The translations under genes were made by a program, and so were the position numbers. The notes beneath the pieces are model-generated. The model was not told where the DNA came from. It made no database searches and was given only the letters and a program-made list of their open reading frames with translations. This document shows positions 15,772 to 59,186 of a stretch of DNA of 64,000 bases, piece after piece; position 1 is the stretch's first letter; each line of letters starts with the position of its first letter. Source of the DNA: Sipunculus nudus (Eukaryota; Annelida; Sipuncula; Golfingiida; Sipunculidae); the NCBI GenBank assembly GCA_026874595.1, contig CM049313.1, forward strand, positions 46,094,659 through 46,158,658. The letters run 5' to 3'.

Positions 15772-15863
15772 TCACTGGAAAAACATAGGAACAGCCGTAG
15801 TCAGCAGCAGAACCATCCAGGGAAAGGCAATTCTACCAGCGCGTTCACGGGCAGCATCGGCAA
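15772..15863 (-). CDS. Ig gene A exon 4 (GPI-type tail)
   Basis: 92 nt from a tacttgcag acceptor to TGA. It encodes (V)ADAARERAG, then a hydrophobic run, and stops one residue after it. The small residues around 131-142 are plausible omega sites. Confidence 0.8.
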
Positions 15864-18800
15864 CTGCAAGTAGAAAACGTGACAGTCAGAGACTGCAGAC
15901 CACGCTGCCATCTAGGGAGTGAAGAGTGAACTAAATTTCGTGTAATTTCTTTTTCCTGCGAATTCTGGAATATGTTTCCTGGATGCTGATCATCCATGTG
16001 GATTGAAATGTTGTTTTTTGGTGGCTGATTTTAATAAAAAAAATATTTTATTTATCTTGAGTACACGAGATATTTTTTCGAGATCTCAACATAAGATCTC
16101 GAGATTCTGTAATTACTTATTTTCCGTGTCCTAAATCAGCAACCATTTTGTCGAGACCCGCCTTGTGTGGAATTTCAAAGGGGAATTTATTCCTTTTTAG
16201 TTACAGACATGCATATATACAAACATACAAATATACAAACACAAAGATATTCTGTTTTTATCGTCCTTGATTGGTTGGCGTGTCGTTGTGCAACCTTCCT
16301 AAAAAGTTTATTCGCAACTTTTGATGACATATATTTGAAAATTATGGCAGCACCCCAGGTACAGTCCATTATTTTTAAGGGGGGGCGGGTTATCTGGACA
16401 ACAGTTATATATTTTTAATAAGTGGCTCATTGGCCATGACGCCCAGCTGAATTCAAGGAACCTTGAACAATGGGTAACATGACGCTCAGAGTGTTCAAAA
16501 TCATGCATTTGCCAATAGACCTTAGATATAGATTATAGTGACCTTATCCTACATTCAGCTGCTACTATTTGTGCCCATCTGACTAACAGAGTGGTAAAAT
16601 CATGTTCTTTCACACACGTTGCAGAATATAGGTCATAGTGACATAATTTCAGGTTTCAAAGAAATTTTTACTGGAACCTCCCTGGATCTTAATCAAATTA
16701 GAAGTTACTGGGTCCAGCTGTAACCAATCAAGCAAATCTGTCCTATAGGGTGCTCAAATCATGTTCTTTCACATATCTTGCAGAATACAGATCACTATGA
16801 CCTAATTTCGGGTGTCCAAGGAGGTTTGCCTAAGACCTCTTTGGATGAAGAGATAGAAGATTCTAGGTCGAATGGTAAGATTTTGTGCCCTATTAACAGC
16901 CAGACTGCTTCATTTGAAGGTCTCAAACAGAGAAAAAAATGCGTAAAAAATCGATGAAACTGATGAAACACTGCAATTTCAATGTATTTGTTTTTCAGAT
17001 ACTGGAGCTTTTGTATCAAATTTTTAATTGTTCGGGGGGGGGGGGGGTTACCTACGAGGCTCTAGCTCTAAGGATTTGGGTAACAGAGACCCAATTTCAG
17101 GTTTCCAAGGAAATTTTTCATGGATCTCTATGGATGTCAACGTAGGAATTCAAAGAAATCATGTCGATCAATGCATAAGATATTCAGATACTGGAGATTT
17201 TTTTAATTATTCTGGGGACTACTTAAGAGCCCCATAGCTCTGAGGATATGGGTACCAGAGACTTTCCAAGGAGTTTTTTTTCATGGACCTCCCTGGATGT
17301 CAAGTTAGAAGATTCAAGGTCCAGTGGTTACGATTTGTGACCTGTAAACGGACGACCGCTTCTTTGAAGGTCTCGAAAATATAGAAAAAATGAGTAAAAA
17401 TTGGAAAAATACAGGTGGCGCCACCAGTCTAAAGGAAATGATGAAACACGCCATGATCAATATGCATGCAAAGAATCATGGCGATTGATGCATTAGTTAT
17501 TCGGGGGGGGGGGGGGGGGCGGGTACTTACGAGCCCAACAGCTCAAAAGATATGAGTAACAGAGACTTTATTTCAAGTTTCCAAGGAGATTTTTCATGGA
17601 CCTCAGTGGATGTCCTCTTAGAAGATTCTAGGTCCGGTGGTTACGATTTGTGCCTTGTGCACGGATGGAAAGACAGACGAACAGACAGACAGACGTACAG
17701 ACTAGGGCTGTATCAATATATCGATGTATCGATACGAATTAATCGATACACGACGTCGATACGATCACCGAAATGCGTTGCATGCTGTATTAGTCGTATC
17801 GATTGCTTGCTAATGAATAGCATTCAAACTATAACTTTACATATAACCAGGACATATTATAAATCTAAAGCTCTGCAGCCTATTTATTTGTTGCTTTGGC
17901 TTTTAAGACTTGTTAATAAATGTATATACGCATGCACGTCAGTACTTCCATGACAAGCAGGCGCATGTGAGCGATAATAGGAGAATGATAATAACGTTTC
18001 TCTTTATTAATGAAACTTATATTCACATCACATATTGCTACAAGGAACAGGGTACATTCACGTATATATCCTATCTATATATGTGTCATTCAATCTCTAT
18101 TTTTTTCGGAACTCCCGCGTTCAACATCAGATGTCAAATAAATGGTAAAAGCCTGGGGACAAATCCTGTACAAACAGGAGAGTGACTAATGGGATTCATA
18201 TTCACAGAATTATACAAAACCGTGTAATTACATGACATAAAAAACAGCCTATGATCTTCACCACCGAATGCAAAAAAAAAAAAAACACGTTTGTGGGGGG
18301 GGGGGGGGGGGGTTATTCAGTATTCAGTTAATATCAAGCTTAAGCTGCTTAAGTGCATAGCATACTAAATATGTTGTATGTTAAAATTAAAAAAAAAACA
18401 TATAAAAACAAGAAACAGAGCTTTTATTAAGAAATGATATACAAAGAAAAATGAAACGTATCATCAATACTTATCGGTATCGAATTAACTGTCTCGCAAT
18501 ACGTATTGTACCGGAAGAGGCGGACCAAAACCCAGCCCTAGTACAGACATATATGGATGACGGGAAAAGAGTGATCGCTATAGCTCAGATGACTTTTAGT
18601 CAGCTGAGCTAAAAATGCTTTATTATTGTGAGAGGGCTATGGCAATTCAGTGGTAATTGGGTCCTGGCCGCCTTTGCTCTAGCAAACAGGATAGATATGA
18701 ATACTTCAGTCGAGAAGAAAAGGCCACAGGTCCATAGTTCCAACGTTTTCATAAGCTATATCAGGTAACTGATAATAACATGTAAAATAATGAAACAACA

Positions 18801-20416
18801 GTATTCACATTTAAAAATTATTTAGAAATTTAAAGTGTTACATTGTGACATTCATCCACGTCACTGGTGCATATTCAACATAAGAAAAAACTTAAACTTA
18901 AAGATAAATAAATCAATTAAATTAAGCGAACAGGATCTCACATATAATAAAACTAGCAGCTTGTGAATCTTGATATATTTTACTGTGAAGTACACACACA
19001 CACACGGATATACACGCACACCCACACACACATGCCAAAGTTTCATTTGAAGTATACAGAGGTATGGTCTCTGACAACATTTCTAGTTAAAGTTTTATCA
19101 ACCTTCAAATAATTAGGTTAGAAATATCTATTTTTTTGTAATTTATAATAGGTATAAAGGTAAATGGCTATCGGGAATGTATTTAAAATGAGAGATGCTG
19201 CCTAAAAGTTGATCTTTAAGACATGAGACCTGTACCCACCCGCAGCTGTAAAGTTCTGTCTGTCGTTGAATGTATCTGATGACGTCGGCATCTCACATAC
19301 ATACACTCCTCCATCTTCAATCTTCACATCTGGAGGAAGAAATGATTGCCGGATTTAAGCAACCGGAAGCACTGCGGAGAGAGAACCTAAGAGGCCATAT
19401 AGTCTTATAGATGATCTGATTCCATCTGATCATGAAAAAAAGAAGAAATTTCTTTAAGGCCAAAACACATCGCCTGTGTGACATTTAACCCCGAATCAAA
19501 ATTTTTTCTGATTTTTAGCAGTTATCAATCATTTTGAACCTGCAGTCTATAGAACATTTCTTTGAAGAAAAAATAACATTTCGAATTAAAAATCCCTTTG
19601 TAATGTTATGTTTAGGAAAACAATTATTTTATGATCATATTGACCGCTAATTATATATGAAATTTTAGTTGAAAACTTTTTTTCCTGATGTACATTCATT
19701 TATGGCGGTTATACAAGTGCTGCAATCGTTCTTCATCTGTTTTGCATTAACTGTATATCTAGATTCTCTAGTTTCGAAAACTTGGGTTGGCAAGTCGCAA
19801 ATCAGACCCATGAGTGCATGGATTAAGAAATTGTTGCAAATAATATTTTGTGACCAAACCATGCATTTCCTAATGTAAAAATTGAAGCATGTGAGCAGTA
19901 TGGGTGGGATGGAAGTTTAACATCTGGAATATTACACAACTGAATATATAAGTTGCTTTCAAATTTCAGACTTTAATAGCTTAAATCCATGCACATACAG
20001 CATATGAAAGTTATTTCAGCAGTGCTTATAGGACAAATTTCATAATTAATGTATATTTAATGATTATGGAGAGATGATGGATATACAGAGATGATCACTT
20101 TATGTTCAATACTCCTGAGGCAAGAATAGGTTTCAATTAGATCTTATTTTTTCTAATTCAATTATTTTTTAAATTAAATAAACTTTACACATAAAAACCA
20201 ATGCCCTAGGGCATCGGTGGAAATGAATAAACGGCGGCAGGGGGTCGGGGGGGGGGGGGGGGGGGTTAACAACACTTTTGCAGATACATACAGGGCAAAC
20301 AAAGCCAGGTCTCCAATTCTGCTGAGGCAGGAAAATATTGAACAAATGTTTTATTAGATCCTAATTTTATAATCACATCATTTTTTTCTTATTTTAAGTT
20401 TACCTATCTATTCATT

Positions 20417-20492
<76 letters not shown>

Positions 20493-23174: not shown

Positions 23175-23218
<44 letters not shown>

Positions 23219-26200
23219 CAGCGCGCATTCTTACCTGTAATCAACAGGGAGGTACGGTAGGTTGTCCCGTTGACGCCACCACCACCATACGTGTACCTGT
23301 CCCTGTGGCCGGCCGGAAGGTTTTCCTGTTTCACTGTATCATTCACTAACAGCTCCACTGGGTCTCCGTCCTCATGCTCTCTCTTGATTGCCACGTGACT
23401 GTCCGTAATGAACTCTTTTGCTTCACAAATCACTTGCCAGTTCTGTCCGCCCTGTTTGTCTTCCTTCCACAGTCTGACACTGGGAAAGCCTGCGACTGTG
23501 TTACACATACGAATGATTGATAATATCAGAAATCCGTGCATAAAAATCTCATATAGTATGGGGAAATACTAATAAAAACAGTATTTTGGGGCAAAATAGT
23601 TAAAGGAATATTTATCCGATTTTTTTTTTGTATTACGCGTACCTTGTAAGAAATTTCCGAGATAAAGGAATCTGGATTAACATTTAAAATCATTATAGGA
23701 TCGTTAAATGTATAAAACCTTTATATGTGCCGCAAGGATTACGTGACAGAATAAAAACTTTTAAAATTCTCTCGTCATACATGTACCAACTTTAAAAAAA
23801 ATACGTTGAGCCAACATTGAGAAATCTGAATAAATCAGAATTCAATTCGTCGGTTTTGTAGCTGGCACAATAAATCTTGTGCAACGAAAAAAATCTTTCC
23901 TAAATATTGGCCATACAAAATATCAGAACGAGACATGGGACCATTGATGAGCATACTGGTATTCAGTATGTACTCAAATTGACTATAAGCCCGTGCAACC
24001 AAGGGGCGCCCATCGGGTTTTGGCGATATTTATTTAAACACTAAAAAAATGGTAAATACAAGTAAATCAACCAGGGGTTCCAGCAATTATCTATAAGGAA
24101 CCCACCACCATACCTACCTTAGTAATTATGAATTTGATTGAAACATTCAGATTTTTATCTTGGGGAAACTAGTCTTTTTTGTGTGTCTCAAGTAACAGGG
24201 TCAAGTTACGACTGTGAAGTTCGACGGACGTCCGACGTCCATTTTTCGTGAAAGGGCTCCGTGAATGCCTGCTATTCCTCCGCTTTTAGCCGGAAACATA
24301 TTTCCCTGACCAGCCTTCTGTTCACCGCTTTGCAGTGTATTTCGCTGATCATCGCTGCCCTCAAGGCTTCGTCAAGATCATGTATATCAAACGGCGCCAA
24401 TACACGCTTTCCAACAGACAAATATGACTATTAATAATACTAATAATGCGACTATTATTCTTTTTTTTTTAAATCTGCTTGATATAAAAAAATGTTATAA
24501 AATTTTAAATACGCTAAACAACCCTTCAAGTTTGGTATCAACAGAAAGTTCTTTTCACAGGTAGTCACATTTTTTTAAATAAATTTTAGAGAGGCATAGT
24601 GAGCGTTTTAGAGGAGTCAGGTACAACTGTTATTCATTTATTTTAATTTCGAGTGAATTTTAAAGTGTCATAAAATTTTAAATACGCTAATCAACCCATC
24701 AAGTTTGGTATCAACGGAAAGTACTTTTCACTGGTAGTTATATGGTATAAAAATTAGAGTGGCACAAGTGACCGTTTTAGAGCAGTCAAATACGACTATT
24801 ATTAAAATTTTTAATTTAGCGTGAATTTTAAAGTGTCATAAAATGTTAGATACGCTAAAGAACCCATCAAGTTTGGTATCAACGGAAAGTACTTTTCAAA
24901 GGTAGTCACATAGTATGAATTTTAGAGTGGCACAAGTGACCGTTTTAGAGCAGTCAAGTACGATTTTTATTCATTTTTTTAAATTAAGCGGTAATTTTAA
25001 AGTGTATATATCTTAAAATACGCTAAAGAACCCATCAAGTTTGGTATCAACGGAAAGTACTTTGCACTGCTAGTCACATTCTATAAAAATTACAGTGGCA
25101 CAAGTGAGCGTTTTAGAGCAGCCGGATACGACTATTATTCATTTTTTTTTTAAATTTCGCGTTGATTTTAAAGTGTTATATATCTTTAAATACGCTAAAC
25201 AACCCATCGAGTTTGGTATCAACGGAAAGTACTTTGCACTGGTAGTCCCATGGTATATAAATTTTAGAGTGGCACAAGTGAGCGTTTTAGAGCAGGCAGA
25301 TACGACTAATATTCAATTGTTTTTAATTTTCCCGTGGATTTTAGAGTGTTATATATATTTAAATACGCTTAACAACCCATCAAATTTGGTATCAACGGAA
25401 AGTACTATGCACTGGTAGTCACATGGTATAAAAATTAGGGTGGCACAAGTGAGCGTTTTAGAGCAGTCAGATACGACTATTATTCATTTTTTTAATTTCT
25501 CTTGGATATTAAAGTGTTATATATGGTAAAATACGCTAAACAACCCATCATGCTTGGTATCAACGTAAAGTAGTTTGCACTGGTAGTCCCATGGTATAAA
25601 AATCATAGGTGCACAAGTGAGCGTTTTAGAGCAGCCTGATACGACTATTATTCATTTTTTTTTAATTTCCCGTGGAGTTTAAAGTGTTATATATATTTAA
25701 AAACGCTTAACAACCCATCAAGTTTGGTATCAACGGAAAGTACTTTTCACTGGTAGTCACATGGTATATAAATTAGAGTGGCACAAGTGAGCGTTTTAGA
25801 GCAGGCGGATACGACTAATATTCAATTTTTTTTCAATTTCTCGTTGATTTTAAAGTGTTATATGTATTTAAATACGCTAAACAACTCATCAAGTTTGGTA
25901 TCAACGGAAAGTACTTTTCACTGGTAGTCCCATGGTATAAAAATCAGAGTGGCACAAGTGACCGTTTTAGAGCAGCCTGATACGACTATTATTCATTTTT
26001 TTTTTAATTTCGCGTTGATTTTAAAGTGTTATATATATTTAAATACGCTTAACAACCCATCAAGTTTGGTATCAACGGAAAGTAATTGCACTGGTAGTCC
26101 CATGGTATAAAAATCAGAGTGGCCCAAGTGAGCGTTTTAGAGCAGTCAAATACGACTATTATTCATTTTTTAAAATTTCTCTTGGATTTAAAAGTGTTAT

Positions 26201-29200
26201 ATATCTTTAAATACGCTAAACAACCCATCAAGTTTGGTATCAACGGAAAGTACTTTGCACTGGTAGTCCCATGTTATAAAAATCAGAGTGGCACAAGTGA
26301 GCGTTTTAGAGCAGCCTGATACGACTATTATTCATTTTTTTAAATTTCCCGTGGATTTTAAAGTGTAATATATTTTAAAAAACGCTTAACAAACCATCAA
26401 GTTTGGTATCAGCGGAAAGTACTTTTCACTGGTAGTCCCATGGTATATAAATTAGAGTGGCACAAGTGAGCGTTTTAGAGCAGTCAGATACGACTCTTAT
26501 TCATTTTTTTAATTTCTCTTGGATTTTAAAGTCGTATCAGGCTGCTCTTAAACGCTCACTTGTGCCACTCTAAAATTCATACCATATAAATAACAGTAAA
26601 AAGTACTTTCCGTTGTTACCAAACTTGATTGGTTGTTTAGCGTAATTAAAATTTTATAACACTTTAAAATTCACGCTAAATTAAATAAAAATTGAATAAT
26701 AGTCGTATTTCACTGCTCTAAAACACTCACTTGTGCCACTCTAAAATTCATACAATGTGACTACCAATAAAAAGTACTTTCCGTTGATACCAAACTTGAT
26801 GGGTTGTTTAGCGTAATTAAAATTTTATAACACTTTAAAATTCACGCTAAATTAAAATAAAATTGAATAATAGTCGTATCTGACTGCTCTAAAACGCTCA
26901 CTTGTGCCACCCTAAAATTCATACCATGTGACTACCAGTAAAAAGTTCTTTCCATTTATACCAAACTTGATGGGTTGTTTAGCGTATTTAAAGATTAATA
27001 ACACTTTAAAATTTACGCTAAATTTAAAAAAAAATGTATAATAGTCGTATCTGACTGCTCTAAAACGCTCACTTGTGCCACTCTAAAATTCATACCATAT
27101 GAATAACAGTAAAAAGTACTTTCCGTTGATACCAAAATTGATTGGTTGTTTAGCGTAATTAAAATTTTATAACACTTTAAAATTCACGATAAATTAAAAT
27201 AAAATTGAAAAATAGTCGTACCTGACTGCTCTAAAACGCACACTTGTGCCACTCTAAAGTTCATACCATGTGAATACCAGTAAAAAGTCCTTTCCGTTGA
27301 TACCAAACTTGATGGGTTGTTTAGCGTATTTAAAGATGTATAATACTTTAAAATTCACGCTAAATTAAAAAAAAATTGAATAAAAATCGTACTTGACTGC
27401 TCTAAAACGCTCACTTGTGCCACTCTAAAATTCATGCCATGTGACTACCTGTTAAAAGTACTTTCCGTTGATACCAAACTTGATGGGTTGTTTAGCGTAA
27501 TTAAAATTTGATATCACTTTAAAATTCACGCTAAATTAAAATAAAATTGAATAATAGTCGTATTTGACTGCTCTAAAACACTCACTTGTGCCACTCTAAA
27601 ATTCATACAATGTGACTACCAATAAAAAGTACTTTCCGTTGATACCAAACTTGATTGGTTGTTTAGCGTAATTAAAATTTTATAAAACTTTAAAATTCAC
27701 GCTAAATTAAAATAAAATTGAATAATAGTCGTATTTGACTGCTCTAAAACGGTCACTTGTGCCACTCTAAAATTCATACCATGTGACTACCAGTAAAAAG
27801 TTCTTTCCGTTTATACCAAACGTGATGGGTTGTTTAGCGTATTTAAAGATGTATAATACTTTAAAATTCACGCTAAATTAAAAAAAAAATGAATAATAGT
27901 CGTATCTGACTGCTCTAAAACGCACACTTGTGCCACTCTAAAATTCATACCATGTGAATACCAGTAAAAAGTCCTTTCCGTTGATACCAAACTTGATGGG
28001 TTGTTTAGCGTATTTAAAGATGTATAATACTTTAAAATTCACGCTAAATTAAAAAAAAATTGAATAAAAATCGTACTTGACTGCTCTAAAACGCTCACTT
28101 GTGCCACTCTAAAATTCATACCATGTGACTACCTGTTAAAAGTACTTTCCGTTGATACCAAACTTGATGGGTTGTTTAGCGTAATTAAAATTTTATATCA
28201 CTTTAAAATTCACGCTAAATTAAAATAAAATTAAATAAAAGTCGTATTTGACTGCTCTAAAACGCTCACTTGTGCCACTCTTAATTTCATACCATGTGAC
28301 TACCAGTAAAAAGTACTTTCCGTTGATACCATACTTAATGGGTTGTTTAGCGTAATAAAAATTTTATAACACTTTAAAATTCACGCTAAATTAAAATAAA
28401 ATTGAATAAAAGTCGTATTTGACTTCTCTAAAACGCTCACTTGTGCCACTCTAAATTCATACCATGTGACTACCTGTGAAAAGTACTTTCCGTTGATACC
28501 AAACTTGATGGGTTGTTTAGCGTATTTAAAATTTTATAACATTTTTTATATCAAGCAGATTTAAAAAAAAAGAATAATAGTCGCATTATTAGTATTATTA
28601 ATAGTGAAATTTGTCTATTAGAAAGCGTGTATTGGCACCGTTTGATATACATGATCTTGACGAAGCCTTGAGGGCAGCGATGATCAGCGAAATACACTGT
28701 AAAGCGGTGAACAGAAGGCTGGTCAGGGAAATATGTTTCCGGCTAAAAGCGGAGGAAGAGCCGGCATTCACGGAGCATTTTCACGAAAAATGGACCTCGG
28801 ACGTCCGTCGAACTTCACAGTCGTGGTCAAGTTTGTCTTAAATAATTTTGTCTAAATTGTTTCATTGCCTATTGCCGGAGAGCACACAGAAAGCACATAC
28901 TGTTCTGTCATTATAAGATACTGGGCAGGTATATAGGCATGCCATGATTATTGTACATTATAGTGACACCTCCGCCGAATCCGTTAGCTTGTATACCCTC
29001 GGATGTACGTGGGGGACCGCCATGGAAAGTATTCTGGCAAGGTCAAGGCCATGGCAGGTCAACCGCATACCTGCTGTGCGCTATGTTAGAACAAAACAAT
29101 GTATTTTGTGTACAGCTATTGCCAATACTCACATATTCTACCTTTAAAGTTTAAGACAACACTCATCAAAGGAATAGTCAGGAAAATACTAAGTATGCGG

Positions 29201-31958: not shown

Positions 31959-32021
<63 letters not shown>

Positions 32022-36078: not shown

Positions 36079-36139
<61 letters not shown>

Positions 36140-36149
36140 TTGAATTGCT

Positions 36150-36215
<66 letters not shown>

Positions 36216-41560: not shown

Positions 41561-41599
41561 CGCTCTCCTTGGGACAGTCTGTGCTATGGTGGTGACGTA

Positions 41600-44140: not shown

Positions 44141-47070
44141 TTTCATGATTATATCATGGCACAAACTACCCCATGCAAGCAAATTTATAAGCAAGTTTAA
44201 ATGGTGTGTGTCACAAGATTGTCACTGTCACAAACATGTCACAAACATGGCACAGACTGCCCTAAGCAAATTTATAAGCATGCATGAAGGGCATGTGTCA
44301 CAAGATTGTCAATGTCACAAGATTGTCACAAACATGGCATAGACTTTCCCAAACAAATTTACAAGCAAGTATAAAGGGTGTGTGTCACAAGATTGTCACT
44401 GTCACAAGATTGTCACAAACATGGCACAGACTTTCCTAAGCACATTTACAAGCAAGTATAAAGGGTGTGTGTCACAAGATTGTCACTGTCACAAGATTGT
44501 CACAAACATGGCATAGACTTTCCTAAGCAATTTTACAAGCAATTATAAAGGGTGTGTGTCACAAGATTGTCACTGTCACAAGATTGTCACAAATATGGCA
44601 CAGACTTTCCCATGAAAATTTACAAGCAAGTATAAAGGGTGTGTGTCACAAGATTGTCACTGTCACAAGATTGTCACAAACATGGCATAGACTTTCCCAA
44701 GCAAATTTACCAGCAAGCATAAAGGGAGTGTGTCACAAGATTGTCACAAGATTGTCACAAACATGGCATAGATTTGACCATACAAATTTACAAGCAAGTA
44801 TAAAGGGTGTGTGTCACAAGATTGTCACAAACATGGCACAGACTTTCCCAAGCAAATTTACCAGCAAGCATAAAGGAGGTGTGTCACAAGATTGTCACAA
44901 GATTGTCACAAACATGGCATAGACTTTCCCAAACAAATTTACAAGCAAGTATAAAGGGTGTGTGTCACAAGATTGTCACTGTCACAAGATTGTCACAATC
45001 ATGGCACAGACTTTCCTAAGAACATTTACAAGCAAGTATAAAGGGTGTGTGTCACAAGATTGTCACTGTCACAAGATTGTCACAAACATGGCATAGACTT
45101 TCCCAAGCAATTTTACTATCAATTATAAAGGGTGTGTGTCTCAAGATTGTCACTGTCACAAGATTGTCACAAACATGGCATAGACTTTCCCAAGTAAATT
45201 TACCAGCAAGTATAAAGGGAGTGTGTCACAATATTGTCACAAGATTGTCACAAACATGGCATAGACTTTCCTAAGCAATTTTACAAGCAATTATAAAGGG
45301 TGTGTGTCACAAGATTGTCACTGTAACAAGATTGTCACAAAGATTGTCACAAACATGGCATAGACTTTTCCAAGTAAATTTACCAGCAAGCATAAAGGGA
45401 GTGTGTCACAAGATTGTCACAAGATTGTCACAAATATGGCATAGACTTTCCCAAACAAATTTACAAGCAAGTATAAAGGGTGTGTGTCACAAGTTTGTCA
45501 CTGTCACAAGATTGTCACAAACATGGCACAGACTTTCCTAAGCAAATTTACAAGCTAGTATAAAGGGTGTGTGTCACAAGATTGTCACTGTCACAAGATT
45601 GTCACAAACATGGCATAGACTTTCCCAAGCAGTTTTACAAGCAATTGTAAAGGGTGTGTGTCACAAGATTGTCACTGTCACAAGATTGTCACAAACATGG
45701 CACAGACTTTCCCATGAAAATTTACAAGCAAGTATAAAGGGTGTGTGTCACAAGATTGTCACTGTCACAAGATTGTCACAAACATGGCATAGACTGTCCC
45801 AAGCAAATTTACAAGCAAGTATAAAGGGTGTGTGTCACAAGATTGTCACTGTCACAAGATTGTCACAAACATGGCATAGACTTTCCCAAGCAAATTTACC
45901 AGCAAGCATAAAGGGAGTGTGTCACAAGATTGTCACAAGATTGTCACAAACATGGCATAGACTTTCCCAAACAAATTTACAAGTAAATATAAAGGGTGTG
46001 TGTCACAAGATTGTCACTGTCACAAGATTGTTACAAACATGGCATAGACTTTCCGAAGCAAATTTACCAGCAAGCATAAAGGGAGTGTGTCACAAGATTG
46101 TCACAAGATTGTCACAAACATGGCATAGACTTTCCCAAACAAATTTACAAGCAAGTATAGAGGGTGTGTGTCACAAGATTGTCACTGTCACCAGATCGTC
46201 ACAAACATGGCATAGACTTTCCCAAGCAAATTTACCAGCAAGCATAAAGGGAGTGTGTCACAAGATTGTCACAAGATTGTCACAAACATGGCATAGACTT
46301 TCCCAAACAAATTTACAAGCAAGTATAAGGGTGTGTGTCACAAGATTGTCACTGTCACAAGAGTGTCACAAACATGGCACAGACTTTCCTAAGCAAATTT
46401 ACAAGCAAGTATAAAGGGTGTGTTTCACAAGATTGTCACTGTCACAAGATTGTCACAAACATGGCATAGACTTTCCCAAGCAATTTTACAAGCAATTATA
46501 AAGGGTGTGTCACAAGATTGTCACTGTCACAAGATTGTCACAAACATGGCACAGACTTTCCAATGAAAATTTACAAGCAAGTATAAAGTGAGTGTGTCAC
46601 AAGATTGTCACTGTCACAAGATTGTCACAAAAATGGCATAGACTTTCCAAAACAAATTTACAAGCAAGTATAAAGGGTGTGTGTCACAAGATTGTCACTG
46701 TCACAAGATTGTCACAAACATGGCACAGACTTTCCTAAGCAAATTTACAAGCAAGTATAAAGGGTGTGTGTCACAAGATTGTCACTGTCACAAGATTGTC
46801 ACAAACATGGCATAGACTTTCCCAAGCAATTTTACAAGCAATTATAAAGGGTGTGTGTCACAAGATTGTCACTGTCACAAGATTGTCACAAACATGGCAC
46901 AGACTTTCCCATGAAAATTTACAAGCAAGTATAAAGGGAATGTGTCACAAGATTGTCACTGTCACAAGATTGTCACAAACATGGCATAGACTGTCCCAAG
47001 CAAATTTAGAAGCAAGCATAAAGGGTGTGTGTCACAATATTGTCACTGTCATAAACAAAGCACAGACTTA
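44141..47070 (+). repeat. 81/87-bp satellite, right array (~34 units), inverted relative to left
   Basis: Reverse-complement form of the left array: gtgtgtcacaagattgtcac, tgtcacaagattgtcac, aaacatggcatagactttcc, caagcaaatttacaagcaag, tataaaggg. Because 81 and 87 are multiples of 3 and the unit lacks stops in one frame, long pseudo-frames appear (up to 281 residues of CHKIVTVTRLSQTWHRLSQ repeats). Confidence 0.95.
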
Positions 47071-47330
47071 CATGTTCAGCTTCTGTGGTTTGGGCGTCTT
47101 GCAGTGACACTGCTATGGCACAGACTGGTAGTACTAGTAAGGCCATGTGTGTAGAGGGTTTATTTGGTCAGATCTTGTGTCTGCAGTCCTCTATTCCCCC
47201 AACCCTCTACATTTGTCACATGATATATAAAGAGGAAAACTACAACAAATATGGGGGATATGGGGAAATGGAGGTAATCCCCAAAATCGGCTGAAAATCG
47301 GCTCGGTTTAGTTGGCCGATTTTCGATGTC

Positions 47331-48439
47331 ACATTTACCGACAAGCGTGTTCCTACCTCTCGATTATCGGTGAAGGAGTCTGTCTCATTTTGGCGATCTA
47401 ATACTCAGCTCTCTAAGAGTAAAACTAAAAGGAAATATGTGTTCGCTTTGTGGCTTGTCCAAAGAAATATGCTGTGTCGGAAGAGTGACCTGTCGGTTAA
47501 ACCTTGGCTTGAGAGAAGAGAGGAACTAGTGGCATATAAACAATACACTTGTATGCGAACTGAGCCAGGAGGGTTGAACCGTCCTTCATTAATTTAATGG
47601 TTTTCTCCGCACATATCAGGGGCGGGTCAGGATTTAAGAAAAGAGGGGTCCAAACCAGGAGCACCAATAACAAAACCTAAAGAAAGGTCCCCAGGTCCGT
47701 TAAAGGTCCGAAAGGATTGGTCTTAAACCCTTAAGTGATTAGGTTTTATTTTTTATCATTAATTACCGTAGAAAGTGATGACCAGTTATATATCTGGCGA
47801 CTCTGTTATCTGTAAGATTGAATCTATAACAACGTATTAAAGTACAGCATCGGCAATAATGCCGCTGACTCCTTGAAACACGTGTACCATAGATCCGTTC
47901 ATATGAACGCTTTTGCCTATTGGGTGCCCTGGCACCTTTGTTTTTGCTGACTTTAGGGAGAATTTGTAATAGGAAAAAAAAACTGTATTAGGAAAAAATT
48001 ACTATCTTAAGGAAAGAAATTTATAATGATGGTTAGAGATTACAAGCATATATACAGTTGATTATTGCCATTCATGAATTGTAAATATTGAATTATTCCC
48101 CCCCCCCCCAGTAAACTCTTACATAAGCTTGAGTTAGTTGTTCAGATTAGGTCGTCACACAATTGGAAGGATTGCTCAACAGCCCAGCAATAAATTGGCG
48201 TTTGCAAACATAAACCTGTACGTTCAGTCTTATGTTTACAGAAATGTTCGCACATTGCAATTATATGAAATGATACTCCTTTATAATGATTAATAAATTG
48301 CAGGTCGTCTTTTAAGAATACATGAAATATGAATCTTTACCATAATCGGTATTTGTTTTTTTTAATATAGAAATATGTCATTATACAATATATACTAATA
48401 ATGACTAATAGCGACAACGTAAAGAACGTGAACTCTGAC
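47331..48439. other. No supported gene
   Basis: Unclassified sequence between the large inverted structure and a small palindromic element; a C-run at about 48100-48109. Confidence 0.45.
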
Positions 48440-48690
48440 CATACAAAAGTATACAAATTCGGCCGACTTTGTCGCAAACATTGGCTCACTACACGATTTC
48501 GCTAATCGCCCGATAAAATCGTCCGATTTTCTTTGACAGTACCAGACTCTTGGGGACGGCGATTTTTCACGCCGACGCCGTCGAAATCGCGTCGCATGGG
48601 GTGTCCCACTACGCGACAATGTACCCCGTAGTTATATAGTTGGCCGATCCTATAAAATCGGCCGATAAAATCAGTAAGTGAGACGCCGGC
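48440..48690. mobile_element. Small palindromic element or terminus related to the 36.64-kb end
   Basis: Both halves carry CGATTTT/AAAATCG-rich words: ggctcactacacgatttc and cccgataaaatcgtccg on the left, aaaatcggccgataaaatc and gtaagtgagacgccggctt on the right. The right tip mirrors the left tip at about 36640 (aagccgggtgctcactac). It could be a solo MITE or the distal end of the larger structure. Confidence 0.45.
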
Positions 48691-49062
48691 TTCAGGGGAC
48701 TAAAATGATATGCATGCCACACATACCAGAGGCCAAAGCGGGGCTGGTGGGGAATAATAAACACAAGTGTTCACTTGTCACAGCAGTAACCCATGTGCCG
48801 ATTCAGAAAAGCTCAGCATGGATGGTCATGTCACAGTTTTTTTCTGTTTCTTAAAGCCACTCATTTACTAATAGGGCATCAGGTTTTAAGTTTTCATTTT
48901 TTTCCAATTCATCTAGAAAGAAAGAAATAGTGGATATACTAAGCCATACATCTAGAAGAGGTCTCATTGTGATTTTTGGTTTTCATAAGTTCCTGGTTTG
49001 GTGGGCTGTTTGTTATATTTGTCCATGGAAACAGATTAAAGTTCAACAAATAGGTCAGAGGA

Positions 49063-49470
49063 ATGGCTCATATGGATGATATAGTTAATACCATGATAGA
49101 GCTTGACTCCAGGGGTGTACAGTTTAATTTTGTTGTCCGTAATCTTGTTAGATTGCCAAAATGGGATCCTAATGAAACTGACTATGTGTCTCTGGCTGAA
49201 AAGCTAGTGATGCTAGATGGTTTAGGCTCAAGAGGCTTGAATTTGTTGTGTCAGAGAAAAAAGTTGCTATCATGTATAACAGTGACATTATTTCAAACCG
49301 ATAAGCGGGTTGAGCAGACAGAGAGGTGTTTATTGATTGGTGTTTCCTCGGGTTGTGCAGGTTATACGGATGTTGTCAAAAGAGGTACAGAGCCTGAAAG
49401 AGCACAACCATATGCAGCAGGGTCCAAGCTTTTCCTCCAAGAAGAGGAGCTGGCGGAAAGACTAAACTAA
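49063..49470 (+). pseudogene. 135-residue open frame upstream of LINE remnant, unassigned
   Basis: Begins MAHMDDIVNTMIELDSRG and continues RLPKWDPNETDYVSLAEK; soluble and acidic in its first half. No domain is recognised. Position and strand, directly before a decayed reverse transcriptase, suggest it is the 5' part of the same retroelement, but it could be unrelated. Confidence 0.3.
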
Positions 49471-49859
49471 CTATTGATGCTACACAGTGCAAAGAGATAA
49501 ATTCAAAGGGAGATTATGACCAACCAACAAACGAGTCGTCGATACCACGGCCTGATGATACCAAACAAGCAGAATCAGATGAAGGTCCTTCGGAAACACC
49601 GAGTTACCAGCGTCGGTTACAAGAGCGGCGACAACGGTATATAGTTCTCAGTTGGACTTGCACTTACAACAATTAAAGATAAATCGTCCCCTGATTCAAT
49701 GTGATGACTATTTTTGTAGCTAACATAATATTCTAATTGATGAGCTTTACACAAATATCGTGAATGCATGTGTTAAGGGCGGTAAAATGGCTATTCCACG
49801 ATCTGGAATGAGCTATTTGAGCCAAAGTGAGAAAGGGCTCTGATGTCGCACCAAATTTG

Positions 49860-51120
49860 GCAGGAGCAGGGCTCTCCCAAGGAGGGTTATTGGCCAGCTA
49901 TTGAGGAAATCGCGTGCTGAGAACCATTTGTCTGTCGGATCAGTAAGGCGAAATGAAGATAAAATCAGGAATGAAAAGCTACAGAAAAATATCTTTTGGT
50001 GCGTGATAGTAAGAATTTATGTAAAGATCTAAAAATTAATAAAGGGGTGAATAAATGTATGTCCAGAACCATTGATGGTATTTCAGGTGATAATACAATT
50101 GCTGAATTATTTGGCAAAAAATACTGTAATTTGCACAATAGTGTTTCATATTGTCAAAGCAAAATTGACAATATTGTTGATGGTGTTATAAAGACTATAA
50201 AATTTAAAACAAATGTATGTCACTTAATGGATTTAAATATCGTAAAGCTAGTATTTCTGTTTATGATGTTTATGATGTTTATGATGCAGTGCAAATGCTC
50301 AAGTCGGGTAAAAAGGATGGATTTAACACTTTGGCTTCAGATCATCTAAGAAATGGCACCCATAGGTTATATGTATTACTGAGCATACTCCTTTCATCAA
50401 TATTATTCCATGGGTTATGTCCAGCCAACATGCTTAAGGGGTCATGACACCTGTGCCCAAAGTTAAGGGCAGCAACAGATCTGTTGATTTTAGGGCAATA
50501 ACACTTTGTGACATCATAACTAAACTAATGGAATTAATTTTATTGAAGTCTTGTCAGAACATGTTACATACATCGGATTTTCAATTTGGTTTCAAGAAAG
50601 GAAGTTCCACAGCAGCATGTACATTTATTGCACAAGAAACAATATCGTATTATAATGACAATGCTTGTAATATAATTGTACATTTCTGGACGCCTCCAAG
50701 GCTTTTGACCGCGTGGAATATTGGGTCTTATTTAAAAACCTTGGAGATCTGAACATGTGTGAATTGTACATTAGGGTTTTTTTTTATTTAAGCATAAAAA
50801 TCATATAATTACTGTAAAATGGGAAAAATATGTATTCAAGTCCATTCGAGGCTAAGAATGGTGTGATACATTTATATACAATGAGGCATTATCTCTCCAG
50901 CACTATTTTGTATTTATATTGATGATCTACTTAGGCAGTAATGGAAGTCTGGGACTGTTTGTAAAACAGGTCCATGTATTTATTGAGCACTAGATTACGC
51001 TGACGACAGTGTTGTTGTGCTCTACCGTTAGAGGAATTAACAGAATGCTAGAAATTTGTTCAAAATATGCAAAGTAGCGCAACATTATATTTATTCCAAA
51101 GAAAAGTAATGAAATAATTT
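49860..51120 (+). pseudogene. Decayed non-LTR retrotransposon (LINE) reverse transcriptase
   Basis: Family-typical blocks appear in order but in shifted frames: IDGISGDNTIAELFGKKY and NSVSY (about 50070-50155); DAVQMLKSGKKDGFNTL (50280-50335); LCPANMLKG then PVPKVKGSNRSVDFRAITL (about 50420-50505); FQFGFKKGSSTAACTF (50580-50630); FLDASKAFDRVEYWVLF (50683-50735, after a frameshift); an SPALFCIYIDDLLRQ segment (50895-50940) and a YADDSVVVL catalytic-motif segment (50998-51025). Several stops and frameshifts make it inactive. Clade not assigned; a CR1/L2/Jockey-type group is likely from the pre-RT spacing. Confidence 0.85.
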
Positions 51121-51353
51121 TTTTCTCCAGGAAGGGAATAATCGACTTAAAAATAAACTATAAAGTTGCGTGACCAAGAAGCATCCTGAGAGCCTCTGCC
51201 TAACATATAAGTTTTGGCTCATCACCCAATTTCTCATATATTTTATTAAGAAATATTGGTAATTTTGTTTGATAAGATTAAGGCATATAGAACTTCTGAC
51301 GGAGACACATTAGATATTTTAAGTTGTGATCAAAAACATTTTTTTTTTTGCAG

Positions 51354-51622
51354 AACCAATAGATTCGCAGCCCGGTCTGGGAGCTGTTTTCAATGTGACG
51401 TGCACTTCATCTCGTGCTCTCAGTAAAACGTGTGCACAGTATTACGCTACGCTGTTCCTGGGGCACATGAAAACCCTCGGAGAGAACAGCATGTTACAAG
51501 GCATCTGTAAAGATGTGGGTCCCCCGACCGTGACTGTCCGTGCAAGACTTACAGTCAAGGCTTTTTTCCGAGATACCACGGGAAGCGTTCATTTAGAACC
51601 TTCAATCAAAGAAGTCAATTAG
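51354..51622 (+). CDS. Possible terminal exon of an unidentified extracellular protein
   Basis: A strong acceptor (a T-run then gcag at 51351-51353) opens a frame which, entered in phase 1 like the Ig genes, reads EPIDSQPGLGAVFNVTC, later TVTVRARLTVKAFF, and ends KEVN with TAG at 51620. It has three Cys and alternating hydrophobic strands, compatible with a small beta-sandwich domain. It is 2.5 kb upstream of gene B on the same strand and has an AATAAA at 51844. No upstream exons were found, so it could be a real 3' exon, or a relic of a third family member. Confidence 0.4.
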
Positions 51623-51904
51623 ATAAAAGGCGTTTTTAAAAATCGGGGTGATATTTTTTTACGAAAGACTCACCATCTTCAAACAAAGCACATGAAATCT
51701 AGCCATACTGTGTCGTGGCGTAAAGCCATAACGAAATGTAGTCATAATATCACGTGGCTTTACGCATACACATTTTTATTCATCCACACCACCTATATAT
51801 TATCGCCGCTGTGAATTCTGCCACATCCCACTGATAAGTCATGAATAAATTAATAAAATAAAGCTATTGCCGATTCAATGTTTTTTCCTGTTCATGGTGA
51901 TAAT

Positions 51905-52090
51905 ATACAGTGAACCCCCCTTTGCGACCAACCCGCAGTGGCGACCATCCCCACGATAACGACTACTTTTCTTGGTCTCAAATATACGATCCAGGTATTT
52001 TGGAGTTCCATAAATACGACCACCCCCAAATTACAACCACTTTGATCAGTCTCTGAGGTTGTTGTAATTGTGTGGTTCCAATGTAAATAC
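51905..52090. mobile_element. Pogo/Tigger-like transposon end fragment
   Basis: Starts acagtgaaccccccttt and continues with short gcgacca/acgacta words, the look of Tc1-mariner/pogo termini. No matching opposite end was found. Low confidence. Confidence 0.3.
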
Positions 52091-53690
52091 ATATATATAT
52101 AAAAGTAAATACATATCATTTCTGTATTACAGATAAACATGTCAGCTACAATTAACATTTTTCTGGATAGAAGTTTCATGCATTAGCGCCGTAATGGAAG
52201 AAGACAATTAAATCCTGCTTGAATGAACTGATTTCTGAGACAGGGAATCCTAGGACGTTCGACCAAGGCAAGAGAGCCAATTATTGAGGGTCTTTGGCGG
52301 TAACTCCTCCATCGACTGTGGTGATGCCCCAGTGTCCAGATGAAGTACTGGAGGTCAAGTGGTTTTGCAAGGATGACATGAATTACAGAGACCAAGACTT
52401 CCGCTGTGTACTGGGTAGGCTTTATGGTTAATACTTTTGTATAAATATGTATTCACTTTTAGAATCACAGCACAAAACTTCTTCAAACATTTCACTAGAG
52501 GTCGGTCCATTTCACTACGGCTGTTCTATTCTACTTTTAAAATGGACATTTGAACCAAAGATATACGTTTTAATTTCATATATATTTTTCTATTAATAAA
52601 TAGGTATTACATTAGTGTGTGGCATAGTCACAAGGGTGATGTGTCTAGTGTGATACCGTATTGCAGAATAGTGTCTGCACCCTTCTCGCTGTCAGATGGT
52701 TCCGCTCTTTTGCGTCGCTGAAAATGAAACGGAATGCGTTATTCTCGATTACAGTAATGCGCCGATTATAATACGTTCATTTGGCAAGCTCGAAGGACAC
52801 AGCCACGTTTACGACCATGCCACCGCGAAAGCACTGCAGTAGTTGGTGTCACTGGAAGATGAAGTTCCTATCCTGGATGCAGGTGGTTCAGGTGTATGGG
52901 TCGCCCGATGTTTTCCCTGAACACGATAGTATCACTCGGCAGCACCCTTGGTGATCACAAAGCCTTCTTTAGGAGCAGCACTGTTTGCTCCACCTGGTGA
53001 GCAGCATGAAAAAATGGCCTTTATTAAACCAAAGCTAATTTCTATATTCTCCCGTTTGCTACCCGCGGCCATTAGGCATCTGCGACCGAATAACAATTAA
53101 AGAGAGAGGCTATACTCATGCCGAGGCGCGAGAAGCCTTTAAAGTGTCGCGTTCGTGAAAAGAAGCATTGCTTGAGAGCTTGTAAACCTGCAATCTGATC
53201 ATTTCTACCGCATCATCTCCATGCGCCTTCCACTACGAAACAGGAAGCACGCCATTCTCTTCAGCGTACACGGCCCTTCACTTGGCGATGGCAACACCAG
53301 AGAAGGTCAAGAAGCAGAAACCTAGAAAAGATGGCGACTGAACAGCAACGTACAAGGGTTGAAATCTGACTGTTTAGTCCGCCTGAACAGACACGCATTC
53401 TTCATCACAGAAGAACTCACCCTACTCTTAGAGAGTCAATATGGCTTCATACCGACACAGGCAACACCGGTCTCAAGCAGATGCGAGAAAAGTGTCGGAA
53501 ACAAACCATGGGACGATATGTCACACGTGTCAACTATGCTATATATATAAAATACATGCGGTTGTGTCATTCTGGCCAATTTTCATAAGGATTTTTTGCA
53601 AACATACTTTTTTTCATAAATTTAGCTCATAATATAACTAAAAATCGATGTTTGCTTTTTTTTCATCCGCAATCTTGGATAAGTGACAGC
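52091..53690. other. No supported gene; possibly decayed transposon or gene relic
   Basis: Plus-strand stretch near 52325-52412 reads PQCPDEVLEVKWFCKDD in one frame before a stop-free end, and 53220-53500 has GC-balanced coding-like sequence, but no continuous frame or family could be recognised. Confidence 0.35.
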
Positions 53691-53727
53691 CATATTAAAA
53701 TCAGGGTTATATCACTGTAAAACTGTA

Positions 53728-53730
<3 letters not shown>

Positions 53731-53794
<64 letters not shown>

Positions 53795-53876
53795 CCTATA
53801 TATATGCATCAATAGCGTTTGCCAAATATTTCGGCCGTCTCCCCTTCCTCAATCCTTGCTACGTCCCTGTCCGGTA
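53731..53876. repeat. (AT)n array plus right-half fragment of the 35.84-kb MITE family
   Basis: AT array 53731-53791, then gcatcaatagcgtttgcc and aaatatttcggccgtctccc, matching 36212-36270 and ending gctacgtccctg. The left end is missing. Confidence 0.7.
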
Positions 53877-54168
53877 GACTTTACTTTGAGGTTTAATGCA
53901 CACACCTATAGGGCCTATACAAAGACCACATTGTACACTCCCGGCTGTTCTGTGGTTGGAGAGTATGTATAGTAATGATGACCACATCCAGGTGGCTGAG
54001 GTTTTCCGGGTTAATCGTATTCCTCCTGTATTTCTCATATCAATCGGTCAGGATAATTCGCCTACGCACATTTCTAAGCAAGTCAGGTGTACAAAAAGCC
54101 TTGCGTGAATTCTCCTGCACGAAAATTCTGCACTTATTGGTACGTGTCGTTCGTCAGGGATTAAGAAC

Positions 54169-54214
54169 ATGGACAACATATTAGCATTACTTGCTTTACT
54201 TCTGGTTGGCCTTG
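54169..54214 (+). CDS. Ig gene B exon 1 (signal peptide)
   Basis: 46 nt, phase 1, followed by a gtatgt donor. Leader MDNILALLALLLVGL. No other ATG-led leader is nearby. Confidence 0.88.
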
Positions 54215-57200
54215 GTATGTACCTTTTCCATTAATAATTCTTGTTATAAGATTATCGATGTATGAATTTTAATTTGATAACAGATCACATATAAAATGAC
54301 TGAACTTTTGCAGTAACCTCATTTTTAGTATTGGACGAAGTTTTAAGGTACATGCGAAATGAAGAGAAATCGTGATCGAACACGAAGTGCTTTTAATGTG
54401 TGTATGTATGTCATAAGGATGTATGGAGCGCAAGTATGACATTGATGAACAAACATACAGTATCAAATCATATTATACAAATCATACCAATGTAACACCT
54501 ATACAGATCTTCAATTCGTAAATTTTCTTTTCCTTTTCCTCTAACATCTTTTTTACAAACTATAAAATCTTAAATTATATTCTGGCTAGGATTATTATAT
54601 GTGTTCAATATAAAATCTGTACCTTATGTATTTATCACATCCCTGTATTTGTAAAATAATTAAGCAGTCATAGATAATAAGAGTTCATGCATATGACCTA
54701 TACAGTGTAAATCTATGAATATTATTAAGAGTGTTATTAAAAATACAAGATGGTGGACATTTCATTTCACAATATATGTATGGATGTATCTGTCTCACCA
54801 TTCTGTACCTCAAGAGTGAATCTCAGCTCTTAGTTGCCTCCGCCAGGAGGGTATGCGTTCATCCCCGTTCGTTCGTGTGGTTGTATGTGATTTGTGTGCT
54901 GTTTACAACATAGCTCACTCAGTCATGAACAAAATTTCATGACATTTCCAGGGCATTTAGGGATGGGCCATTGAACATTTGATTAAAATTTGGTGTGGAC
55001 CGGCACGTGATCTGGCTTCAGGAACACGATCAAGGAATATTCACAAATGTACAGCCAATTATGCACGAATATGGGAATATGGGCCAAATAAGTGAATACC
55101 AACACGGTTTTGCGAGCATCCTTGGACCCCCTAGTGGCAGAGGCTTGCATTCTAAGGAATGCAGATTTCAAGTTATTTCCTTGTCTCTCTCTGACAATAG
55201 ATTGGTCTCAGTCTTATTATAGAATGCCCCCAAACTCATTAATTTCCATTTACAGTAGCAGCATCACCCTCAGTTAAGCTGAGCATACCAGAGGGCGCTG
55301 AAGTACAGAAGGGTGACGATGTGCGGATCATATGCACTGCAACAGATTTCAAGACAGGTGCTATACTCAAAATCAATAAATGGAACAACACCGCTAGCAA
55401 AGAAGAAACTCTGATGACAAATGGACAGTTAGATAATGACGTCCCGGATAAGGATAGATACTCCGCTCGACATAACAACACCGGGATAGGGGATTATGAT
55501 TTTACTCTCCAAATTCAAGGTAAGGCCATACAAATAAAATATGATTCTACGCATGCATCGCTTGAACTTTTCGTGGGTCAGTTTTTCCTCTGGCAAATGA
55601 AGCTAGATCCAAGGAAATGTTGGTTTTTGTAATTTCTCAAATTCCCGAAAAGAATTCTTAAAGGTATCGTAATTTACAAAGTTTTGTGTTGATAATATAC
55701 CTATTTCAAGAACTCAAGCAAATTTTGAATGCTCTATAGGCAAGCTGACAAATTCCACTTGTTGTGTTTGACTTGTGTAAAAAGCCCGCTCGATGAACAT
55801 TTTTTTTTTGGCCAGCGAAACAATAATTTTGTTGTGTCCTGATGCTTACACAAAGCAAGCTCCTGTTCGTTGGTGTATTTTATATGTCAGGGCAATTAAT
55901 CCACCAAATACTGTTACTTTTGCTTACGGTAAGAGGCAACGTGAAAAAAAAACACATCTATAACGTGATTGGCTTATTATGAGAAGGCTTAAAGGATACT
56001 AAGATATAAGAAGACTCATTTTGAATTATGAGGATATAGTAAATTCATGAATCGGTCGAGTGAAATGTCCAAAAGCGTGTTCTCGCGCCTGAAGAGGAAT
56101 TATAAAGAGACAGAAAATTATTAAAGAAGCCTAATATTTAAAACCACGCTGTTGAATTCTAATGAGCCCATATTTTATATAGTTTATATAGTTTCTTTTC
56201 CGCAAAGCAACATACTCTTCACGTCCACTCCGTTTAGAAGCCGCGGGTATATACGACAGATACAACAGTAAAATACAATACAACGGTATATGTTATATTT
56301 TCAAAACAGGAACAGACAAACAAAAGTGCATGTATCCTTGTAGTTGGCATATTATATAGTATTCCGGACATAATTTGATGAATCCATTAGAGTAAAGATG
56401 ATATATTCACGGAAAACGACTGCTGTAGATAAAATCAGTATGCCTACGGAAATAAAGTTAGATGTCATGTGCACTGATGGGACCTGATTTCGCCGGTTTT
56501 GTATGGAATATATGACTGACATATAAAATCTATCAATATTCTGCATTCCGGTTACGCATACCTCTGCGCATTCTGCGCTCCGTGCATTTGACATTGATAT
56601 GCTTTATATAGCTTTACAGGTTAAATACACCTTAAAGTCGAGTCATCTGACAAACATTTATTTTTATATTTATTGCTTGCCGAGTTGGTTGGTCAGTCGC
56701 GGATGTCTGTTTGTCTGTCTGTCTGTCTGTTACGTCTCTACAGGTCGCAATTTTGCAGCAATCGCTTTCAAACTTACACAGTTGATGGAAATTTAAAATA
56801 ACAGGAGCCAATTGTTTTTGGTCAATATAGGTCAAGGTCAAAGTCATCAAAACTTCTCAAAACAGTTTTTCTTTATATCTTTGTTACTATTAGTCGTAAC
56901 TACTTTAACTGTAGCTCATTTTAATCGTCATCCCAAGGCTTTTCCTCTGGTGTGTAGCTGCCTCAAATTTGCTGTAACCATGGTTACGCATTTTGGGGTA
57001 AAAATCATGAAAAAGTAATTATTTTTCTAACTTTGACCGTTTTAAAGCTACAGAGGTTTAGTTTTTTGCATCAGGGAGCATACAAGTAGTGTTATTTGAT
57101 TATATTACAAGTCTAGCAATATCTCGTACAATATCTCGTCAAACGAAATCCTTTGGAAACTGGTACATCTTATGTCTTACACTAATATCTCGAAATGGTA

Positions 57201-58918
57201 TTTTCATTTTCAGGATAAAGCTGCTAGGGGAAGCTGGACTTGAACCTCTCCATCATATAAGTTTTTTGACATATCTCCAAAACTATAAACCTTTATTAAA
57301 GTAACTATAACTTATTTTCTTCTGTTGGGTCTTCTCCATAATCTGAATAAGTCATTTGGTATCAATCTTGTGTCACTTCGTCAGTATGTCTGTCTGTTTA
57401 TCAGTTGTATACAAATTCGCTTGCTTGCTGGTTCTTGCGTCTCACATCTAGCATTCTACAGGCCACAGTTTTAGAGGAATCCTTTTGAAACTGGTAATCT
57501 TATGTCTTACACAAATATCTCGAATTGATATTTTCATTTTCCAGATATAGCTGCTAGGAGGCGCTGCACTCGACCTTCTCCAACATATCATTTTTGGCCA
57601 TCTCGATATCTATAACCCTCAATTACAGAAACTATAGCTTATTTTCTTCCTCTGGGACTTCTCCATAACCTGGCTAAGTCATCTGGTATCAATCTTGTGT
57701 CACTTTTTCAGTATGTCTGTCTGTTTTTTGTCAGGTATGTCTGCTTTCATGTTCTTTTGTGTGATATATGTCGTTCAACAGCCCAACTTTTCAGCAATCG
57801 CTCTCAAAGTCACTCGGTTGACAGAAAACCGACAGTTTGTTCTGTCTGTCCTTCTGTCTTTCATTTCAATTTCAGGCAAACGCTCGATCTATGTTCGTCT
57901 AGTTTATTGATTTATTTTATCTGTTTTTGTAGATGTTCAGTTTAGAGATGGCGGAACCTTCATTTGTTCGATACGATTCGAAGACGAGTCCTCCACCAGT
58001 CGCATTACCATGAAAGTATATGGTGAGTACTCATGCAATGAATAGATCCTAATCTTAAAATATAAATCTGAGGACCCATTCTTCCACACCCACATCCGCT
58101 GATACATAACACATTTTAGATACGGCAGCTAAACAACACAATCTTAGTACAGCATTTTGAATGATGTGCATTAACCTTTAAAAAACGAATACAACTCGAG
58201 TTTCAGTCACCACAAAATTATTTTATAAATAAAAATGAAGCAGATAAAATGTGTTTTTAACTGGCCTTTTCACTGATTTCTTTCCCATTTAGTAAAGGAG
58301 AAAGTAGCTAACGGACTGATTATAAAAAGGGAATAGAAATTTTGTAAGAAAATCCTAAATAATTATAGATATTTTTTTAAATGGTGATGTCTTTTATAAT
58401 GTTATGTTTTTATATGTCTACAGGAAAGCATATGAAACATGACTGGCATTTTGAAATATTGTTATAAATAAATATGTGTAAACCAATCGTTCCAGTTACA
58501 AAAGGGACACCTGTCCCCGGATACTGACACTGAGTATTCGGGTATGATATATCAACAAGACAATGGACGAATCTGGGGCATTTAAAGATATAATCAAGGA
58601 TATCTGCAAATTATAAATGTCATCATTTAATTTCTTTACGTGCGTGAAAAGATTGTGATTTTTTTTTTCTAGATAAGTAAAAAAAAAAAAGAAATAATTT
58701 TCGAAATTTTATTTTACAAACGATTTTAGGGGGAGAATATATTTTATATAGTATATATTATTTTATTATCAATTATAAATTAATAAAATGTATTATGTAT
58801 TTTCCTCTCACTTTCAGCCCCACCTGCTACAACGCCAAGCGGGGAGAACATCGCACCATCAAACAATGCCGCCTCCCTCATTGTTGTCATGGCAATGGCT
58901 GTCTCCACGTTTTTATGA
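54169..58918 (+). CDS. Ig gene B: GPI-anchored single V-set Ig protein, 4 exons, 166 aa
   Basis: Exons 54169-54214, 55256-55519, 57933-58022 and 58818-58918 (46, 264, 90, 101 nt) join to 501 nt; all introns are GT-AG and phase 1. Residues 1-15 (MDNILALLALLLVGL) form a signal peptide. About 19-133 make one V-set Ig domain: Cys42 in DVRIIC, a Trp at 58 (INKW), DRYSA...DYDFTLQIQ, then DVQFRDGGTFIC with Cys115. Sequons at N59 and N89. Residues 134-152 are a Pro/Thr/Ser/Asn-rich stalk, and 153-166 (SLIVVMAMAVSTFL) is a hydrophobic end with no cytoplasmic residues, typical of a GPI signal. The protein should sit on the outer cell surface or be secreted; the partner is unknown. Exon plan and DGGxxxC block match gene A. 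Function in recognition or adhesion is inference. Confidence 0.9.
54835..55147 (+). repeat. Dispersed MITE-like family M, copy 2
   Basis: In intron 1 of gene B. Begins gcctccgccaggagggtatg; shares gggaatatgggccaaataag, then tgaat, with the copy at 59631; ends gtggcagaggc. Ends are short inverted matches of cctccgc/gcagagg type. Confidence 0.65.
55256..55519 (+). CDS. Ig gene B exon 2 (V-set strands A-E)
   Basis: 264 nt, phase 1 to 1, acceptor ccatttacag, donor gtaagg. Encodes (V)AASPSVKLSIPEGAEV, the first Cys, and ends YDFTLQIQ. Confidence 0.92.
56686..57840 (+). repeat. Intron 2 repeat with ~330-bp tandem duplication
   Basis: 57140-57396 and 57472-57724 are diverged copies sharing cttatgtcttacac, aatatctcgaa, tattttcattttc, agctgctagg, ttattttctt, cttctccataa and ggtatcaatcttgtgtcac. 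Flanking gtctgtctg tracts (56706-56730, 57390, 57715) and a cagcaatcgct-tcaaa block at 56757 and 57796 recur with the same logic, so the whole stretch is a repeat in gene B intron 2. Confidence 0.75.
57933..58022 (+). CDS. Ig gene B exon 3 (strands F-G)
   Basis: 90 nt, phase 1 to 1, acceptor tgtttttgtag, donor gtgagt. Encodes (D)VQFRDGGTFICSIRFED and a short G-strand ITMKVY. Confidence 0.92.
58818..58918 (+). CDS. Ig gene B exon 4 (stalk and GPI-type tail)
   Basis: 101 nt from a cactttcag acceptor to TGA. Encodes (A)PPATTPSGENIAPSNNAA followed by the hydrophobic end. Confidence 0.9.

Positions 58919-59109: not shown

Positions 59110-59186
<77 letters not shown>

Follow-up and report, generated by a model that had tools for sequence, protein, structure and literature searches.

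Two sets of four short exons, oriented divergently, lie in the 64-kb stretch of DNA analysed here (the window). An earlier note had read them as two genes, A and B, each encoding a leader, a single V-set immunoglobulin (Ig) domain and a GPI-type tail, and had seen in them a fast-evolving family of surface-recognition proteins. Are these genuine genes, are they related to each other, and what would their products do? In this work we have examined their exon structure, their mutual homology, the make-up of the Ig domain and the DNA that surrounds them.

Gene models and their certainty

The models of the two genes are given in Table 1. All six introns (8623, 3905 and 3376 nt in gene A; 1041, 2413 and 795 nt in gene B, as calculated from the exon coordinates) begin with GT, end with AG and lie in phase 1. 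The joined frames run uninterrupted to the stop and encode products of 162 (A) and 166 (B) amino acids. The end coordinates reported earlier were exact to a single base for both genes, and the four exons per gene and the uniform phase were confirmed as well. The exon plan had also been called identical, and this is true for the number, order and phases of the exons and for the lengths of exons 1 and 3, but gene B has 3 nt more in exon 2 and 9 nt more in exon 4. An AATAAA is found 130 nt downstream of exon 4 of gene A and 583 nt downstream of exon 4 of gene B. By their sequence, A and B look like genuine genes, although what we describe are predicted models. They have four exons as read, and further exons may lie inside the introns of 0.8-8.6 kb.

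Table 1. Exons of genes A and B and repeat arrays in the window
Feature	Position	Strand	Length (nt)	Content
Gene A exon 1	32119-32164	minus	46	start codon and hydrophobic leader; phase 1 donor
Gene A exon 2	23235-23495	minus	261	first part of V-type Ig domain; first Cys, DRY
Gene A exon 3	19240-19329	minus	90	DVKIEDGGVYVC and last part of Ig domain
Gene A exon 4	15772-15863	minus	92	short linker, hydrophobic C-terminal tail, stop
Gene B exon 1	54169-54214	plus	46	start codon and hydrophobic leader; phase 1 donor with weak score
Gene B exon 2	55256-55519	plus	264	first part of V-type Ig domain; first Cys, DRY
Gene B exon 3	57933-58022	plus	90	DVQFRDGGTFIC and last part of Ig domain
Gene B exon 4	58818-58918	plus	101	P/T/S-containing stalk, hydrophobic C-terminal tail, stop
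Tandem array	24450-28540			units of 168-173 nt; inside gene A first intron
Satellite arrays	36800-41500 and 44100-47200	opposite orientation		87-nt units, partly 81-nt
77-nt repeat array	about 41600-44150			between both 87-nt arrays

Could one or both genes nevertheless be relics, or misjoined models which are not expressed or whose exon 1 or exon 4 comes from elsewhere? The models were read from genomic sequence alone, the first intron of gene A spans 8.6 kb with a satellite array inside, the product of gene A stays under the Pfam V-set cut-off, and the donor of gene B exon 1 is weak, with rival leader candidates upstream. However, the 489 nt (A) and 501 nt (B) of coding sequence have suffered no stop, frameshift or loss of a splice site, the exon lengths and phases of the two genes match, and end exons of this kind are rare in the window. 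In scans whose thresholds were chosen with the exons of A and B already in view, we found five leader-type first exons on both strands of the 64 kb (37-79 nt, phase 1 donor, relaxed settings) and ten phase 1 terminal exons that finish in an uncharged hydrophobic stretch, two of which use a common stop. Exon 4 of gene A and that of gene B were the most hydrophobic of these ten. Among the five leader-type exons, only exon 1 of A and of B are 46 nt long; the former is the sole candidate on the minus strand, and the remaining three are on the plus strand at 15286, 36552 and 43563. A stricter scan, the settings of which were then relaxed, had returned exon 1 of gene A alone; that of gene B was missed because its donor is weak (score 1.35, compared with 5.44 for A). 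Two of the candidates upstream of gene B exon 2, at 36552 (3.58) and 43563 (1.61), have better donors than exon 1 of gene B, and the first exon is therefore the least certain part of gene B. Its length, common with gene A, and its closeness to exon 2 speak for it. Taken together, we consider it highly improbable that either gene is a relic or a product of misjoining.

The candidate at 36552 is a leader-like open stretch of 76 nt on the plus strand (36552-36627), 17.6 kb upstream of exon 1 of gene B. It is possible that it serves as an alternative first exon for this gene, or it may be there by chance.

Relationship between A and B

The Ig parts of A and B aligned with an E-value of 2e-12 over 105 columns with 29% identity, in a comparison in which exons 2 and 3 each ended with a residue read into the intron in both sequences. 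For the correctly spliced Ig parts the local score was 99, whereas 2000 shuffles averaged 26.9 (s.d. 4.8) and none exceeded 60, which corresponds to a z of 15. When the exons were taken singly, the score of exon 2 was equalled in one of 2000 shuffles and that of exon 3 in none. In a tblastn search of the window, the two copies of exon 2 found each other (E 0.002-0.003), and exon 3 alone gave no significant match there (E 0.47-0.54). The earlier view of one family and that of a leader in each product are both supported, and the low protein identity noted before was also borne out, the two whole proteins being 24% identical. By exon, identical residues number 2 of 15 in the leader, 23 of 85 in exon 2, 7 of 30 in exon 3 and 6 of 29 in the tail. 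At the level of sequence it is well supported that A and B are old paralogues, duplicates of each other, and that their predicted products are small surface proteins.

Is it possible that they belong to a fast-evolving, polymorphic family for self/non-self or pathogen recognition, in which the binding face is under positive selection while the fold and the exon plan are kept? Such a family would account for Ig exons that share few residues and nonetheless retain the frame of the fold, and Alr of Hydractinia is described as a precedent for invertebrate V-set families of this kind (PMC11999971). However, the window holds only two copies, an old duplication yields the same picture, and the leader and the tail have diverged no less than the Ig part, which means that the change is not visibly focused on the binding domain. 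An identity of 24% between two paralogues is uninformative about rate because their age is needed too, and synonymous change is probably of little use at the distance between A and B. We regard membership in such a family as quite unlikely, and rapid evolution of these products, or recognition of self or of microbes by them, would be a guess.

A profile of the two domains, run against the 2496 six-frame stretches of at least 18 amino acids in the window, returned the four known exons with a next best E-value of 0.67, and we found no third copy or relic exon among these stretches. A weak QDGG-like sequence at 54737-54772 was considered as a relic exon and rejected, since it has no F-strand cysteine and its stretch (at 54719) gave an E-value of 13. 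The opposed satellite arrays suggested an inverted duplication of the locus, but no shared duplicated block was seen: blastn of positions 1-36800 against 47250-64000 (E up to 1e-3) gave three short matches, all of them direct and none at the gene exons. In prokaryote contigs, a pattern scan for relatives gave 147 matches, of which none was confirmed.

The V-type domain

The earlier reading of the V domain has to be corrected in respect of the exons that encode it. In gene B, exon 2 alone matched the Pfam V-set family with 15.5 bits and the spliced protein with 37.4 bits (cut-off 26); exon 3 alone gave no more than weak hits in two other Ig families (E 0.039 and 0.13). Neither exon of gene A matched any family alone, and its spliced protein reached 23.8 bits, just under the cut-off. 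Because the V-set score rises when the exons are joined, the Ig domain must be split by an intron, which lies just before the DxxxxDGGxxxC motif. Exon 3 is part of the Ig domain and not a stalk, and exons 2 and 3 together encode the V domain. The claim of a single V-set domain holds in so far as each product has one V-type Ig domain, with the score of A below the cut-off. The motif VAxxPSVxL had been read as strand A, but its VA is probably the end of the signal peptide instead.

Each product contains only two cysteines, 75 residues apart in A and 73 in B, and these spacings are within the range of V-type domains. V-set domains carry a core tryptophan in strand C; between the two cysteines A has no tryptophan, and B has one, 16 residues past the first cysteine in the sequence, which may correspond to it. 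A six-frame scan of the 64 kb gave the DxxxxDGGxxxC-type pattern at two places, exon 3 of A and exon 3 of B, while a looser pattern of the D-x-G-x-Y-x-C type occurs at four places in the window, two of which are the exons of A and B. Compared with the sequences of solved structures, a profile built from the two sequences was closest to Ig domains of LRIG1, JAML, DSCAM, OPCML, MXRA8 and CD4 (best E 6.7e-7, among the best 60 of 1425 matches), and B alone to JAML, antibody light chains and CD4 (best E 7.3e-6, among the best 60 of 1359). The IgLONs OPCML, neurotrimin and NEGR1, together with PD-L1, antibodies and T-cell receptors, were also among the matches listed (best 60 of 1425 or of 1359). 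Many of these matches span just a part of the Ig domain and their E-values are weak; as sequence matches, they assign the domain to the Ig superfamily but indicate nothing finer.

IgLON and Dpr/DIP proteins work in cell-type matching. Could A and B likewise be adhesion proteins of the nervous system, a small and stable family of old duplicates with separate expression patterns? The presence of three IgLONs among the best 60 of the 1425 profile matches would point in this direction. However, those matches are weak and mixed with antibodies, T-cell receptors, PD-L1 and CD4, and OPCML, neurotrimin and NEGR1 each carry more than one Ig domain. We consider a role in the nervous system unlikely.

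N-glycosylation sequons number three in A and two in B, at which the products may be glycosylated. According to hydropathy and inspection, both C-termini consist of an uncharged hydrophobic stretch with no residues left for a cytoplasmic part. The linker before the hydrophobic part of A contains one Asp, three Arg and one Glu, and charged residues like these are unusual in a GPI signal. Judged from these sequences, a GPI anchor on the products of both genes is likely.

Genomic context

The 22 kb between the genes contain opposed 87-nt satellite arrays and a 77-nt array (Table 1). Within the array in the first intron of gene A, 11 copies are spaced exactly 171 nt apart, starting from 26530. A further tandem array with a period of 56 nt lies at 12300-13500, where all three plus-strand frames are open for more than 350 codons; it is probably the repeat that gives rise to them. 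At 49975-50749 there are open stretches which resemble, by eye, fragments of a LINE-type reverse transcriptase and have no Pfam match. To look for other genes, we compared 17 more open stretches with Pfam, seven of them from one list and ten from a second; three gave weak matches far below the cut-off (E 0.034-0.15) and the rest gave none. These 17 are a part of the open stretches in the window, since the second list counts 430 of at least 45 amino acids, each with 12 or more kinds of residue and outside three satellite regions. In the whole window there were no Rfam matches at gathering scores, and ARAGORN found no tRNAs. Some features of the sequence gave a mollusc-like impression.

Discussion

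We conclude that A and B are probably an old paralogous pair encoding Thy-1-like adhesion or recognition proteins with one Ig domain and a GPI anchor. If, as we infer, both genes are expressed, they would form a small IgSF family, and each would give rise to a protein of about 160 amino acids that enters the secretory pathway. The signal peptide would be cleaved off, the single V-type Ig domain would fold outside the cell and form the usual disulphide, and the C-terminal hydrophobic signal, which leaves no cytoplasmic tail, would be swapped for a GPI anchor. The product would most likely act like Thy-1/CD90, as a short glycosylated label for adhesion or recognition in the outer leaflet of the membrane. 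There it would bind a partner, carried by the same cell or by a neighbour, and would signal through other membrane proteins only.

Thy-1/CD90 is, by its architecture, the closest working analogy that we can offer. It is described as having one V-type domain, one disulphide, two or three N-glycans and a GPI anchor. Integrins, syndecan-4 and CD90 itself are among its ligands, and the same review speaks of homologues in squids, tunicates and worms (PMC6497726). As read from their sequence, A and B would resemble it in the leader, the one V-type Ig domain with one disulphide, the few N-glycans and the GPI-type tail. A possible difference is the phase 1 intron that divides the Ig domain of A and B. 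Thy-1 was not among the structure matches listed (best 60 of 1425 and of 1359), and the collection may not contain it.

Alr proteins combine several extracellular domains with a transmembrane part and a cytoplasmic tail, whereas the models of A and B have a single Ig domain and nothing past the hydrophobic end. What the Hydractinia Alr proteins do have in common with A and B is the presence of V-set Ig domains in an invertebrate gene family; their complex is reported to comprise 41 genes, compared with the two in our window (PMC11999971). Membership in Alr fails on the architecture of the models as read. The molluscan FREPs are also invertebrate recognition proteins with Ig domains, described as carrying a fibrinogen domain in addition to one or two IgSF domains (PMC7588048). 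In A and B the frame ends after the tail exon. We rejected membership in FREPs, since the stop lies in exon 4 and neither product has a fibrinogen match (E <=1).

Could A and B instead belong to a lineage-specific family, so far undescribed, which has expanded in this animal and serves the recognition of individuals or microbes, and whose one-Ig GPI-anchored members keep to a fixed plan of four exons with a phase 1 intron inside the V domain? Among titles and abstract openings of the literature we found no one-Ig GPI-anchored family besides CD90/Thy-1, which leaves absence from print unproven. We think such a family very unlikely here. On our best reading, one-Ig adhesion or recognition proteins are a known kind of protein, and A and B are new members of it.

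As it stands, the locus contains a well-formed pair of Ig adhesion-type genes, and the precise exon plan of A and B is a handle for finding further members. Should the family turn out to be large and polymorphic, it would add to the systems of surface recognition in invertebrates one with a minimal design of a single domain.
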